Assembly (NCBI GenBank): GCA_031283185.1
Contig: JAITCH010000010.1
Location: 127,237-189,544, forward strand
Direction of reading: 5' to 3'
From: Rickettsiales bacterium
Lineage (GTDB): Bacteria > Pseudomonadota > Alphaproteobacteria > Rs-D84
DNA length: 62,308 bases
The position numbers and the translations under genes were made by a program. The notes beneath the pieces were generated by a model. It had not been told where the DNA came from. It saw nothing but the letters and a program-made list of their open reading frames with translations, and did no database searches. Positions 12,740 through 59,210 of this stretch are shown here, piece after piece (positions within the stretch are counted from its first letter, which is position 1; the number at the start of each line of letters is the position of its first letter).

Positions 12740-14915
<2,176 letters not shown>

Positions 14916-39942: not shown

Positions 39943-40582
39943 TTGATATAATTATATCATATTTAACAAAAATTGCATAGCAATTTTTGTCATTCCCGCG
40001 CAGGCGGGAATAGGGCTCTAAACAATATAAGTGGCACAAAGTAATTGTGCCGCTTTTAGTTTGCGGGCTTTGCCCGCGATTTCAAGCCTTAGCCCCGCCT
40101 GCGCGGGGCTGACAAAAAAGATGAAATAGGGGCGGAAATCCAGCCAAAAACACCAAAAATCAGCCAAAAAACGGCAAAAAATGGCGGAATTTTGGTCAAA
40201 ATTAAGTGGATTTAAGCAAAATTTCAGCCAAAAATTCGTGGATTTTAAGGGCATTTTAAGCGCGCAAAAATCCAAATTAAAATCAAAATCAGAAACGAAT
40301 CAAAAAATAAAAAATTAAAAAGTCATTTCGTGGCTTGATCACGGAATCTTGCCGAACGGGCTTCATAACAAAACAGGGGCGCAGAGAAAACGGCAGAAAC
40401 CCGCCAAAACAGCCCAATCCTAATGTCGCATAATGTATATTATGTATAGTTTTGTATTCGGGTGTTTGGCGGGTGGCAGGGTGTGGCGCGTCCGCAGCCC
40501 CGAATGGCGCAGGCTGGACGGCATTGACTTTGGCGGAATTCTGCATTAAACTCGTGCTCAGAATTAAATTAAAGGAAAAATT
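39943..40582. other. Gene-free A/T-rich stretch
   Basis: About 640 bp. It contains a partial family C repeat (39989-40011), a hairpin GGCACAA/TTGTGCC (40032-40052), three direct copies of CAGCCAAAAA (40141, 40161, 40225) with two GTGGATTTxAAG units between 40207 and 40250, a decayed family F unit near 40320, and the dif-like site at 40425. Short frames on the minus strand (40018-40275, 40289-40546) have no ribosome-binding site or homology and are not called. Confidence 0.6.
40425..40452 (+). other. dif: dif-like XerCD recombination site
   Basis: The 17-base core CATAATGTATATTATGT is identical to the core of E. coli dif: arms CGCATAA and TTATGT around the central hexamer TGTATA. It lies in the only long gene-free stretch of the window. 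The right arm continues ATAGTT, exactly as in two further sites at 57858 and 58024 whose central hexamer is TGTGCG. Confidence 0.65.
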
Positions 40583-55129: not shown

Positions 55130-55142
55130 AAATAACCCTTAT

Positions 55143-55207
55143 GGCGGGTAGGAGAGAGCACCCGCCACCCATTTCCCCCGCGGGGCGGGATTTCCCAATC
55201 CCGCCCC
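55143..55207 (+). terminator. Tandem hairpins after the secreted pair
   Basis: GGCGGGT/ACCCGCC (55143-55166) and GGGGCGGGATT-TTCCC-AATCCCGCCCC (about 55182-55207), then CTTTTATC. A related block follows the BRO gene at 56130-56194, and part of it follows the antitoxin at 56865. Confidence 0.7.
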
Positions 55208-55255
55208 GAACCTTTTATCAACTTAACATTTGCTCCCCATCCCTAAAATTATCAT

Positions 55256-55284
55256 TTGCCCTGCCCCGATGATTAATATATGAT
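55256..55284 (+). promoter_or_regulatory. Promoter for the BRO-family gene
   Basis: TTGCCC (55256-55261), 17-nt spacer, TATGAT (55279-55284), 9 nt to the ATG at 55294. Confidence 0.45.
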
Positions 55285-55293
55285 TTGCATCAA

Positions 55294-56124
55294 ATGAACA
55301 CTAGAATAAAACTTTTTGAAGACAAAAATATCCGCACCCTGTGGGACGACAAGGCAGAAAAATGGTATTTTTCTGTCGTTGATGTAGTTGGTGTTCTGAC
55401 CGATCAACCTACGCAAGACGGCGCACGGAATTATTGGAAGGTGCTGAAACACAGGCTGAACGAAGAAGGCAGCCAGTTGGTTACAAATTGTAACCAACTG
55501 AAAATGCAATCTTCGGACGGCAAATTTTATCTAACCGATGCCGCTGATGCTGAACAAATCCTGCGCCTTGTTCAGTCCATCCCCAGTAAAAAGGCAGAGC
55601 CGTTTAAGTTATGGCTTGCCAAGGTCGGCTCGGAAAGATTAGATGAAATCGCCGACCCGGAACTCGCAATAAATCGCGCACTCGAAACCTACGCCCGCAA
55701 AGGCTATTCGCTTGATTGGATAAATCAGCGGTTGAAAACTATTGAAGTTCGGAAACTTATGACTGACGAATGGGACAAAGGCGGCATAACCAAAGGCCGC
55801 GAATATGCAATTCTTACAGACGAAATTTACAAGGGCTGGGCGGGTCTTAGCACTCGTGATTATAAACGACTTAAAGGCCTTACCAAAGCAAACTTACGGG
55901 ATAATATGAGCAATTTGGAATTGGTGCTGAATATGTTGGCCGAGGCGACCACAACGGAAATAGCGCAAAAGAAAAATCCGCAGGGTTTGAATGAGAATAT
56001 GGATGTCGCGCGTGAAGGCTCACAGGCGGCGGGACTTGCGCGGAAACATATTGAAAAGCAGACTGGCGCACCGATTATCACAGGCCAAAATGCGAAGAGC
56101 CTTAAAAAGATAGCAAATAAATAG
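55294..56124 (+). CDS. BRO-N domain protein (phage antirepressor/DinD-like)
   Basis: 276 residues. The N-terminal Bro-N domain is clear (FEDKNIRTLWDDKAEKWYFSVVDVVGVLTDQPTQDGARNYWKVLKHRLNEEG, then SDGKFYLTDAADAEQILRLVQSIPSKKAEPFKLWLAKVG). The C-terminal part (TKGREYAILTDEIYKGWAGLSTRDYKRLKGL...NMSNLELVLNMLAEATTTEI) is shared by chromosomal BRO proteins such as DinD-like ones. Bro-N domains bind DNA; roles in phage control or DNA-damage response are known for relatives. A mobile origin is likely; a toxin-antitoxin pair lies next to it. Confidence 0.82.
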   Translation: MNTRIKLFEDKNIRTLWDDKAEKWYFSVVDVVGVLTDQPTQDGARNYWKVLKHRLNEEGSQLVTNCNQLKMQSSDGKFYLTDAADAEQILRLVQSIPSKKAEPFKLWLAKVGSERLDEIADPELAINRALETYARKGYSLDWINQRLKTIEVRKLMTDEWDKGGITKGREYAILTDEIYKGWAGLSTRDYKRLKGLTKANLRDNMSNLELVLNMLAEATTTEIAQKKNPQGLNENMDVAREGSQAAGLARKHIEKQTGAPIITGQNAKSLKKIANK

Positions 56125-56168
56125 CCTATGGCTGGGGGAGAGAGCATCCCGCCACCCATTTCCTTGGC

Positions 56169-56194
56169 GGGGCGGGATTTTCCAATCCCGCCCC
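56169..56194 (+). terminator. Hairpin terminator after the BRO gene
   Basis: GGGGCGGGAT, loop, ATCCCGCCCC, then GAACCTTTTATC. Confidence 0.7.
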
Positions 56195-56228
56195 GAACCT
56201 TTTATCAACTTATCATCCCATTTTCCCC

Positions 56229-56257
56229 TTGACTTTATGTAGACAATAGTCTACAAT
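56229..56257 (+). promoter_or_regulatory. Toxin-antitoxin promoter with embedded operator
   Basis: TTGACT (56229-56234), 17-nt spacer, TACAAT (56252-56257). A perfect palindrome TGTAGAC-AATA-GTCTACA (56238-56255) fills the spacer and overlaps the -10, as expected for autorepression by the antitoxin. The -10 ends 5 nt before the toxin ATG. Confidence 0.72.
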
Positions 56258-56262
56258 GTAAT

Positions 56263-56559
56263 ATGGATAAATACGAAATTCATTCAACCGAAACCTTTGA
56301 TGTCTGGATTGACGGACTTAAAGACGACAATACGCGCACGGCTATATTTAGATATATTGACCGAATGGCGGATGGCAATCTCGGCAAAACGAAGTCCGTG
56401 GGCGATGGCATAATGGAAAATAAAATAAATATTGGTCCCGGATACCGCATATATTTCACGCGAACCGGGCGGACAATATTGCTCTTGTTGTGCGGGGGCG
56501 ACAAATCAACCCAACAGCGCGACATCAGGCAGGCAAAACAATTAAAACAAGAGGTGTGA
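56263..56559 (+). CDS. HigB/RelE-like toxin of a type II module
   Basis: 98 residues: FDVWIDGLKDDNTRTAIFRYIDRMADGNLGKTKSVGDGIMENKINIGPGYRIYFTRTGRTILLLLCGGDKSTQQRDIRQA is the phage-derived Gp49/HigB-type addiction-module killer family with the RelE fold, including the Arg-Tyr (YRIYF) and LCGGDKSTQQRDI signatures. Such toxins cut mRNA on the ribosome. The toxin comes first, the HigBA order. The mRNA is probably leaderless. The antitoxin starts 2 nt after its stop. Confidence 0.88.
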   Translation: MDKYEIHSTETFDVWIDGLKDDNTRTAIFRYIDRMADGNLGKTKSVGDGIMENKINIGPGYRIYFTRTGRTILLLLCGGDKSTQQRDIRQAKQLKQEV

Positions 56560-56561
56560 TT

Positions 56562-56858
56562 ATGGCACTTAAAACAAAAAAATGGGATACTGCGGAACAT
56601 CTTCGTAGTCCTGCGGAAATAGAGAATTATTTGACGGAATCTTTTGCCGAAGGCGATGAGAAACAGATAATTCGCGCGCTTGATAATGCAGTGCGCGCCC
56701 AAGGGATTTTGTCTGTGGCGCGCAAAATCGGACGCGATCGGGCGGGGCTTTATAGGGCATTGTCCGGGGACAAAGATCCGCGTTTTTCAACTATTATAAA
56801 GGCGGCGAATGCTTGTGGTGGGCGCATATCATATGTTCCGACTGCGATCGCTGCCTAA
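56562..56858 (+). CDS. HigA-like antitoxin (helix-turn-helix)
   Basis: 98 residues: YLTESFAEGDEKQIIRALDNAVRAQGILSVARKIGRDRAGLYRALSGDKDPRFSTIIKAANACGGRISYVP matches the addiction-module antidote family, with the HTH at about 52-75. It should neutralise the preceding toxin and repress the shared promoter through the TGTAGAC palindrome. GAGGTG precedes the ATG. Confidence 0.88.
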   Translation: MALKTKKWDTAEHLRSPAEIENYLTESFAEGDEKQIIRALDNAVRAQGILSVARKIGRDRAGLYRALSGDKDPRFSTIIKAANACGGRISYVPTAIAA

Positions 56859-56864
56859 CTTTAT

Positions 56865-56892
56865 GGCGGAGTGGGATTTCCCAATCCCGCCC
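56865..56892 (+). terminator. Hairpin after the antitoxin gene
   Basis: Imperfect GGCGGAGTGGGATT-TCCC-AATCCCGCCCC followed by GAACCATTTATTCC. Confidence 0.6.
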
Positions 56893-56965
56893 CGAACCAT
56901 TTATTCCCCTCTTGCAATCTGGGCGGACTCGCGCTAGAATGAAATGGAATTAAAGGAGTCCTGCT

Positions 56966-57303: not shown

Positions 57304-57332
57304 AATTCCCCTCCATTAGAGGGGAATTTTTT
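57304..57332. terminator. Hairpin terminator
   Basis: AATTCCCCTC, loop CATTA, GAGGGGAATT, then T4. It resembles a bare family D left arm and serves the gap between two convergent genes. Confidence 0.8.
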
Positions 57333-57335
57333 CAA

Positions 57336-57860
57336 TCAAAACTCCGTCCTAAATCCAACTTTCACAGATTTCAAATCGCCCTCAATCTGAACATTATATT
57401 TATCAACGAAAGCCCAAACAAATAATCCGCTTATAATTGCCCCGGCGGCGACATCGTGCCAATAATGCTTGTTTGCATATATGCGCGACCAGCCGGTAAA
57501 TCCGGCAATGGCATACGGGACGATCGCCCGCTGGAACCCATATCTTTTATGGATGAATGCCGCGCCGGACACAGCCGAAGCGGTATGCCCCGATGGAAAA
57601 CTATTGCGATCGCTGCCATCCGGTCGCCGTTCGTCGATCGCCATTTTCAATCCGATAACGCTTGCTTGCATTGCGCCGAAAGAACCGATGAATTGCCCGG
57701 CACCAGTCCAGCCGTCTTCACCCATTGCCATCCCGAATGCGTAGGCGGGCACGATGATTTGACCTATGTCCCCCAGCCCTTCAATGGTGGATTTGGCATT
57801 GGCGATTGATGGATAAAACCCCATAATTGCGGCGAAAAGAAGGATGAATTTATGACCCAT
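57336..57860 (-). CDS. PAP2-family phosphatase, periplasmic
   Basis: 174 residues from the ATG at 57860: signal peptide (FILLFAAIMGFYPSIANA), then the three PAP2 motifs KMAIDERRP, PSGH and SRIYANKHYWHD. Such acid phosphatases act on lipid or soluble phosphomonoesters outside the inner membrane; here the enzyme could serve undecaprenyl-pyrophosphate or lipid-A-type substrates. Its start codon is part of the left inverted dif-like repeat, and no promoter points towards it in the present orientation of the 57881-58001 segment. A longer frame to 57893 reads through the repeat. Confidence 0.8.
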   Translation of the reverse strand: MGHKFILLFAAIMGFYPSIANAKSTIEGLGDIGQIIVPAYAFGMAMGEDGWTGAGQFIGSFGAMQASVIGLKMAIDERRPDGSDRNSFPSGHTASAVSGAAFIHKRYGFQRAIVPYAIAGFTGWSRIYANKHYWHDVAAGAIISGLFVWAFVDKYNVQIEGDLKSVKVGFRTEF

Positions 57861-57880
57861 AATGTGCGTTATGTATAGTT
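57858..57880 (+). repeat. Left inverted dif-like repeat (23 bp)
   Basis: CATAA-TGTGCG-TTATG core followed by TATAGTT; identical, inverted, to 58002-58024. Same arms as the dif-like site at 40425 with a different central hexamer. The first three bases are the PAP2 start codon read in reverse. Confidence 0.85.
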
Positions 57881-58001
57881 TCGCCGCCCGCATAAATTGG
57901 CAGTTTTCAATGGGTTATTGGGGCTACCGAGCGTAAATTTCAGTTGACTTTTTGGGCGGCACAGGATATTATTCCTGTGAAACCGCCACTTGGCGCAACA
58001 T
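57881..58001. promoter_or_regulatory. Putative invertible 121-bp promoter segment
   Basis: The segment between the two inverted dif-like repeats contains one strong rightward promoter (57944-57972) and no coding sequence. Inversion would turn the promoter from tsaD towards the PAP2 gene. Confidence 0.6.
57944..57972 (+). promoter_or_regulatory. Strong sigma-70 promoter with palindromic -10 operator
   Basis: TTGACT (57944-57949), exactly 17 nt, TATTAT (57967-57972). The -10 is the centre of CACAGGA-TATTAT-TCCTGTG (57960-57979), a perfect 7-bp inverted repeat that could bind a regulator. Confidence 0.72.
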
Positions 58002-58024
58002 AACTATACATAACGCACATTATG
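58002..58024 (-). repeat. Right inverted dif-like repeat (23 bp)
   Basis: Perfect reverse complement of 57858-57880. On the minus strand it extends leftward as CGCATAA, matching the full XerC-type arm of the 40425 site. Confidence 0.85.
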
Positions 58025-58070
58025 CGATTTTTTATGGAAATTATTTCAGAATTTGGGTATAAAGCATCAA

Positions 58071-59210
58071 ATGGCGAATAGAAAAATCCTTTGTCTTGGC
58101 ATTGAAAGTAGTTGCGATGAAACTGCGGCGGCGGTAGTGGATTCGGACAAGAACATTTTGTCGCATATAATTCTATCGCAAATTCCCGAACATCAAAAGT
58201 TCGGCGGTGTGGTGCCGGAACTTGCCGCCCGGTCGCACATATTGGCGATTGACGATGTCATTCAACGCGCGCTAACCGATGCGAAACTTAAAATCGCCGA
58301 CATAGATGTGGTCGCCGCAACCGGCGGACCCGGATTGATTGGCGGGGTTTTGGTGGGTTGGATGGCGGCGCGCGGCTTGGCGCAGGCGGCGGGCAAGCCG
58401 TTGGTTGCAGTGAACCATTTAGAGGGACACGCCCTTGTCCCGCGCCTGACGAACGATGTGGAATTTCCGTATTTAATGTTGCTTGTGACGGGCGGCAATA
58501 CGCAGATATTGTTGGCTCGCGGGGTGGGCGATTATGAAGTGCTGGGTCAGACGATTGACGATGCGGCGGGCGAGGCGTTTGACAAGGTCGCAAAGATGCT
58601 GGGTTTGCCCTACCCCGGCGGCCCCGAAATAGATAAATTGGCATCTAAATTCCCCGCCAAGGGTGGCGGGGTGTCCGCCTCCGGCGGACGGGGTGGTTCG
58701 ACCTTTACTTTGCCCCGCCCTCTTCTCGGTCAAAAGAACTGCGACTTTTCATTCAGCGGAATCAAAACATCCGCCCGAACAATATTGAACAAAATCGCCC
58801 GCCCGTTAACCGAAGACGAAATGGCAGAATTTTGCGCCGAGTTCCAATCCGCGGTAGCAGATTGTATAATTGACCGCCTCCGCAACGCACTATCCATAAT
58901 GTCATCCCGGTGCTTGACACCGGGATCTCGCCAAATAAAAACATTGGTCGTTGCAGGTGGTGTTGCAAAAAACTCAATGCTCCGCGAAGTCCTGCCTGCC
59001 CTGGCGGCAGAATACGGCCTGAAATTCGCTGCTCCGCGCCTTGATTTATGCACAGATAACGGGGCGATGATTGCCTGGGCGGGGATAGAGAATTATTTGG
59101 CCGGACGCATTGCGCCACCCGACTTTGCCCCCCGCCCCCGCTGGCCATTGGACGAAAAATTCCCCGCCAATGGTGGCGGGGTGGCGGGCTTTGCCCGCCG
59201 GGGTGGTTAG
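58071..59210 (+). CDS. tsaD: tRNA threonylcarbamoyladenosine synthase subunit TsaD with three repeat insertions
   Basis: 379 residues. Kae1/TsaD motifs: LGIESSCDETAAAVV, HQKFGGVVPELAARSH, VNHLEGH (metal His), LLVTGGNTQI, GEAFDKVAKMLGLPYPGGPEID and CTDNGAMIAWAG. It makes t6A37 in tRNA and is essential in most bacteria. Three palindromic repeats are translated: family A at residues about 193-211, family F at 277-288 (MSSRCLTPGSRQ), and family A again as the last 17 residues with the stop. They add about 45 residues to a ~340-residue family. The ATG at 58071 is preferred; a TTG six codons upstream is possible. Driven by the invertible promoter. Confidence 0.93.
   Translation: MANRKILCLGIESSCDETAAAVVDSDKNILSHIILSQIPEHQKFGGVVPELAARSHILAIDDVIQRALTDAKLKIADIDVVAATGGPGLIGGVLVGWMAARGLAQAAGKPLVAVNHLEGHALVPRLTNDVEFPYLMLLVTGGNTQILLARGVGDYEVLGQTIDDAAGEAFDKVAKMLGLPYPGGPEIDKLASKFPAKGGGVSASGGRGGSTFTLPRPLLGQKNCDFSFSGIKTSARTILNKIARPLTEDEMAEFCAEFQSAVADCIIDRLRNALSIMSSRCLTPGSRQIKTLVVAGGVAKNSMLREVLPALAAEYGLKFAAPRLDLCTDNGAMIAWAGIENYLAGRIAPPDFAPRPRWPLDEKFPANGGGVAGFARRGG
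58648..58701 (+). repeat. Family A repeat inside tsaD
   Basis: Complete 54-bp copy (18 codons), centre GTCCGCCTCCGGCGGAC, between EIDKLAS and STFTLPRPL. Confidence 0.92.
58901..58932 (+). repeat. Family F repeat inside tsaD
   Basis: GTCATCCCGGTGCTTGACACCGGGATCTCGCC; arms CCCGGTG/CACCGGG differ from other copies but still pair. Confidence 0.85.

Follow-up and report, generated by a model that had tools for sequence, protein, structure and literature searches.

The locus

The window considered here, meaning the whole stretch of 62,308 nucleotides that was analysed, makes up the right-hand end of contig C15 (189.5 kb) in the 930-kb genome (G000) of a Rickettsiales bacterium. Within it, a PAP2-family phosphatase gene and tsaD lie on opposite strands on either side of a short segment bracketed by inverted repeats, and the features that matter for the argument are the following.

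40423 to 40451, plus strand: chromosomal dif, central hexamer TGTATA, at a switch in KOPS polarity
57304 to 57332, no strand: hairpin followed by a T run, read directly, between a gene for a 111-aa protein and the PAP2 gene
57336 to 57860, minus strand: PAP2-family phosphatase gene with signal peptide, its start codon in the left repeat; inserted relative to same-genus genomes
57852 to 57880, plus strand: left Xer-type site (XerC arm 57852-57862, hexamer TGTGCG 57863-57868, XerD arm 57869-57880; repeat 57858-57880)
57881 to 58001, no strand: 121-bp segment predicted to invert, lineage-specific among 20 relatives
57944 to 57972, plus strand: sigma-70-type promoter TTGACT-17-TATTAT (10/12) facing tsaD, its -10 box in the loop of a dyad
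58002 to 58030, minus strand: right Xer-type site (XerD arm 58002-58013, hexamer 58014-58019, XerC arm 58020-58030; repeat 58002-58024)
58071 to 59210, plus strand: tsaD, tRNA t6A transferase (TIGR03723 at 394 bits, cut-off 296)

The original prediction, an invertible promoter between the two genes, was built on two perfect 23-bp inverted repeats separated by 121 nt, and these are present exactly as described (57858-57880 and 58002-58024); barring one 33-bp REP-like pair, they are the sole inverted repeat of at least 15 bp with a gap of 20-600 bp in the 189.5-kb contig. A full 28-bp XerC/XerD-type site is built around each repeat, ATGACCCATAA-TGTGCG-TTATGTATAGTT on the left and AAATCGCATAA-TGTGCG-TTATGTATAGTT on the right, to be compared with ATGTCGCATAA-TGTATA-TTATGTATAGTT at dif, so that either site agrees with dif at 9/11 positions of the XerC arm and 12/12 of the XerD arm (21/23 arm positions); this upholds the Xer-type layout that had been proposed, with arms in common with the dif-like site and another central hexamer. 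The two sites are opposed, carry the same hexamer, and are identical to each other only across the inner XerC arm, the hexamer and the XerD arm, the identity ending where binding should end. On a 21-position scale dif scores 21 and the pair 19 and 20, the next-best place in the window reaching 15, and the exact 17-base arm pattern CATAA-N6-TTATGTATAGTT occurs three times in the whole genome, at dif and at the inverted pair. No Rfam family scored above its gathering threshold. The RNA fold of the segment is ordinary (z -1.5), and its strong single-stranded DNA fold (z -5.2) does no more than restate the repeat.

The promoter within the segment lies where it was predicted, on the plus strand, and its score is reached by 1.2% of dinucleotide shuffles of the segment; its -10 box forms the loop of the dyad CACAGGA-TATTAT-TCCTGTG (57960-57979). 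The PAP2 gene now has no facing promoter of at least 9/12 with a 16-18 nt spacer, as had been claimed, and when the segment is inverted in silico this gene gains the 10/12 promoter, leaving tsaD with only weak 9/12 candidates (57799, 57852). The PAP2 gene starts, on the minus strand, at the outermost CAT (57858-57860) of the left repeat; the signal peptides of homologues back this start, no clear Shine-Dalgarno sequence precedes it, and the product is predicted to be an exported phosphatase.

Recombinases, dif and FtsK

Among tyrosine recombinases, only XerD (L188) and XerC (L189) were found intact in the genome, which also has an FtsK gene; a motif search across the 930-kb assembly, a weak test, returned no serine recombinase. 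A degenerate integrase of 383 codons (L190, G000:C4:49749) retains little of its catalytic domain. The sites have two of the marks of a dif/pdif-type site, dif-like arms around a 6-bp centre and a host with intact XerC and XerD, and their opposed orientation and identical centre are those of inverted pXerC/D pairs that recombine. Inverted repeats of 10-40 nt flanking a promoter are likewise one mark of an inverton; a nearby invertase gene, common among invertons and not obligatory, is absent, the tyrosine recombinase genes being on other contigs.

The dif at 40423 is real, as confirmed by the distribution of the KOPS-like motif GGGNAGGG on the contig, which runs 24 forward to 5 reverse to the left of dif and 0 to 10 to its right (Fisher P 5e-6); GC skew on the same contig stays positive across position 40425, and KOPS polarity was therefore used instead. 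Sites with TGTATA or a close variant number about one per genome across the family, and most of the relatives that the dif sequence retrieved are gut Alphaproteobacteria. To the right of dif, at a distance of 17 kb, is the inverted pair; here KOPS point FtsK back to dif, and one KOPS-like motif occurs 0.6 kb beyond the pair. Around dif itself, 107 dif loci of the family (L062, L079, L091, L125, L171 and L174 among them) were surveyed for extra copies of the XerD arm TTATGTATAGTT within 1.5 kb, and these follow a strict geometry: 56 are opposed and on the XerD side, many at 46-60 bp and some in tandem arrays of 45-73 bp; 13 have the same orientation and lie upstream (mostly 220-450 bp); 1 is arranged otherwise, and none is both opposed and upstream. 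Conservation of these copies is limited to the arm.

History of the tsaD junction

Three same-genus genomes have neither a PAP2 gene nor the repeats at the tsaD locus, and show instead the order 111-aa gene, tsaD, xseA with little or no spacing. G001 retains most of the interval between dif and tsaD in order (gpmI, two glycosyltransferases, an M23 peptidase, hisS, a rodZ-like gene and the 111-aa gene), with dif ~19 kb from tsaD; this synteny led us to reject a CTX-type prophage lying between dif and the pair. As judged from this comparison, the PAP2 gene, the terminator-like hairpin and the Xer pair entered an old gene junction in this lineage, the hairpin being a likely terminator that cuts tsaD off from its ancestral upstream gene. 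Through this insertion tsaD lost its upstream neighbour and became a bystander dependent on the promoter in the segment. When 20 relatives were searched for a second copy of the segment, only a 27-bp match was returned.

Homologues of the PAP2 gene occur at scattered positions across the order, and no dif-like sites were found at 29 such loci; viral contigs contain no relative of the gene, and phages and plasmids offer only distant matches. Compared with G001, the window at 55130-56960 has an inserted Bro-N gene and an inserted Gp49/HI1420-type toxin-antitoxin pair, both upstream of the 111-aa gene. Several conserved genes also contain palindromic repeat inserts, internally or at an end, that are translated along with them (window 58647-58698; ORFs at 12740, 13695, 23103 and 59110). 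The latter carry the motif FPAKGGGV...GRGGS, are missing from tsaD of G001 and resemble the palindromic elements of Rickettsia.

Recurrence in relatives

Genomes of the order, 201 in all, were searched for paired CATAA-N6-TTATG sites at a spacing of 100-160 bp, whatever their orientation or hexamer. Four genomes were returned (a reversed-pattern control returned 0), and all four pairs are opposed with hexamers identical within the pair: TGTGCG in G000, TCGCTA in G001, TGTTTC in G016 and CATGCA in G029, the last of which is palindromic, so that the orientation of this pair rests on its arms. Three of these four genomes are less than 90% complete. The same search across a 385-genome spread of the class returned only G000, and among 39 pairs of the same spacing on viral contigs, 34 had unmatched hexamers, 4 were direct matches and 1 was an inverted match. 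A relaxed scan of ~1.7 Mb, which took in almost the whole of G000, the greater part of G001 and the G016 and G029 loci, revealed no further matched pair in either orientation.

The arms of these sites follow those of dif, the XerC arm reading TCG-CATAA in the right site of G000 and both sites of G001, as in the dif of the genus, and GCG-CATAA in the G016 and G029 sites, the form of most dif sites elsewhere in the family; at the G001 and G029 loci the match of the XerD arms to dif is only partial. The three relatives' pairs are independent instances of the same build at unrelated loci. In G001 (C6:13128-13318; L240/L278) the pair sits between head-to-head paralogous glycosyltransferases, 64% identical, each heading more glycosyltransferase genes, and the best promoter-like site of the segment faces one of them (P 0.16 against shuffles, not significant); from this arrangement the pair is likely to flip a promoter between two surface-glycan operons. 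The G029 segment (C86:4883-5023) contains TTGACT-16-TATAAT (P 0.002), with the 3' end of a transglycosylase gene ahead of it and a lipoprotein-like gene behind, and the G016 pair (C70:244-422) precedes a gene for a YgjV-like membrane protein, its segment promoter not being significant against shuffles (P 0.19), which leaves a significant promoter in 2/4 segments.

A probable promoter switch without its own invertase

We consider it probable, at around two chances in three, that positions 57881-58001 form a promoter segment which the cell inverts with its own XerC and XerD; inversion itself, the recombinase used, activation by FtsK and regulation of PAP2 as the selected effect are what we infer. 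Two 28-bp sites that face each other and have a private hexamer in common should be able to recombine together, and strand exchange inside the hexamers would then turn the promoter from tsaD, the present state in which PAP2 is off, to PAP2, and back. The three XerD-proximal bases of the hexamer differ from those of dif (GCG against ATA), and since XerD-first exchange would begin on that side, no FtsK/XerD-first recombination with dif is expected; in VGJphi a difference of this kind excludes XerD from the reaction (PMC5357621). The chromosome would thereby be spared a 17-kb deletion or inversion. A position 17 kb from dif, in the zone where KOPS direct FtsK, makes activation of the switch by FtsK at division plausible.

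With regard to which gene is served, the Xer-type sites and the switch architecture of the original prediction stand, and tsaD as a meaningful target is doubtful, the comparison with relatives casting it as a bystander. The PAP2 gene is more likely than tsaD to be the one regulated, because silencing of tsaD should be harmful and because it is the PAP2 gene, together with the hairpin and the Xer pair, that was inserted at the old junction; as a predicted exported phosphatase it also better matches the kind of gene found at the sister loci. As tsaD is essential in most bacteria, the flipped state would require some residual tsaD expression.

Several systems already described resemble the pair in part. 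In Acinetobacter plasmids, opposed pXerC/D (pdif) pairs with an identical centre and XerD arm and a variable XerC arm, the very combination seen here, undergo reversible inversion as detected by PCR (PMC9947245); those pairs bound larger resistance modules on plasmids, whereas here a 121-bp promoter segment without an ORF, and hence without the gene that a dif module has between its sites, lies on a chromosomal contig syntenic with relatives in the Alphaproteobacteria, with a hexamer of its own at each locus. Against the proposed switch, intramolecular recombination between plasmid Xer sites in Acinetobacter was found to be inefficient; in that study, opposed pairs with different centres were not expected to recombine, and the product sought failed to appear (PMC11705084). 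The switches of Mollicutes (Xer1/Vpma of Mycoplasma agalactiae, PMC2268961; Ureaplasma XerC, PMC3599477) also use Xer-family tyrosine recombinases for phase variation by inversion, but these Xer-like enzymes serve surface antigen loci and are not the dif-resolving XerCD working on a promoter flanked by dif-type sites. In gut Bacteroidota and Akkermansia, invertons (PMC11892184; Jiang et al. 2019 cited there) likewise have a promoter set between short inverted repeats, close to surface-related genes; they are usually tied to dedicated invertases, whereas the repeats here are dif-like and have no invertase gene near them.

The explanation that competes best, and which we still regard as unlikely, is that the pair is the footprint of a mobile element that exploits Xer (a dif module, an IMEX or a CTX-like folded attP) and that carried PAP2 to tsaD, with the promoter incidental and any inversion devoid of a regulatory role. 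The PAP2 gene and the sites are indeed inserted relative to same-genus genomes, the Bro-N and Gp49/HI1420-type genes are inserted nearby, and PAP2 homologues are scattered across the order. The hexamer, moreover, shares its XerC-side TGT with dif and differs on the XerD side, as does that of VGJphi attP (PMC5357621), and CTXphi attP1 and attP2 are opposed and ~90 bp apart (PMC3089051), a likeness of two dif-like opposed sites at a spacing of ~100 bp. However, the CTXphi sites have unmatched centres, belong to a phage genome and integrate at dif, none of which is true of the present pair; its centres are matched, unlike those of the CTX attP pairs and of the filamentous-size viral contig L246, and the stretch between dif and tsaD, being syntenic with G001, is not a prophage. 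Neither phage nor plasmid genes lie next to the pair, PAP2 is not bounded by a second site, the PAP2 homologue loci with dif-like sites number 0/29, and the sister pairs flank other genes.

Far less probable is that the repeats do not recombine and form a fixed element, leader or operator, around the promoter of tsaD, their likeness to dif inherited and without present use; the -10 box does lie in a dyad that could be an operator and the locus is young and lineage-specific, but both sites retain 21/23 arm positions and an identical hexamer, and a shared operator would not give the same build with other hexamers at unrelated loci. That the segment inverts through a recombinase other than XerC/XerD is very improbable, for although a dedicated invertase, often encoded nearby, accompanies most known invertons (PMC11892184), the genome has no other intact tyrosine recombinase and no serine recombinase by the weak motif scan, and the arms follow dif down to the TCG-type XerC arm of the genus.

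Returning to inversion by XerC and XerD, the same build at unrelated loci in three related species suggests that housekeeping enzymes probably flip promoters in these bacteria. A broader and more tentative proposal, to which we would give slightly less than even chances, is that in a family of reduced-genome gut Alphaproteobacteria the machinery of XerC, XerD, FtsK and dif doubles as a general promoter invertase, acting on inverted dif-like pairs that each species has for itself and that a private hexamer insulates from dif, so that surface-related genes would be re-sorted at division without a dedicated invertase. Phase switches are normally found through dedicated invertases; if promoters can be flipped by the near-universal XerCD through private dif-like sites, a class of switches that has no marker gene has gone unnoticed, FtsK could couple inversion to the cell cycle, and a simple rule, opposed dif-type arms around an identical non-dif hexamer, would find such switches in any genome.

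Other dif-like sites

Dif-like sites were also encountered on viral contigs and outside the class. The 7.8-kb viral contig L246 (IMGVR_UViG_2660238093_000003) carries opposed, unmatched dif-like sites (CTTATC, TGTATA) like the folded attP of CTXphi, and six related viral contigs from IMG/VR (L191, L193, L194, L202, L205 and L207) have a dif-like GTCGCATAA-N6-TTATGTATAGTT in a common context, with the hexamer CCTACA in four, which is possibly a XerCD phage attachment site. In a member of the Prevotellaceae (L026:7459-7754), an opposed dif-like pair with the identical hexamer CCGCCG and a gap of 264 bp lies upstream of a lipoprotein-like gene and is a possible Xer-type inverton in Bacteroidota.
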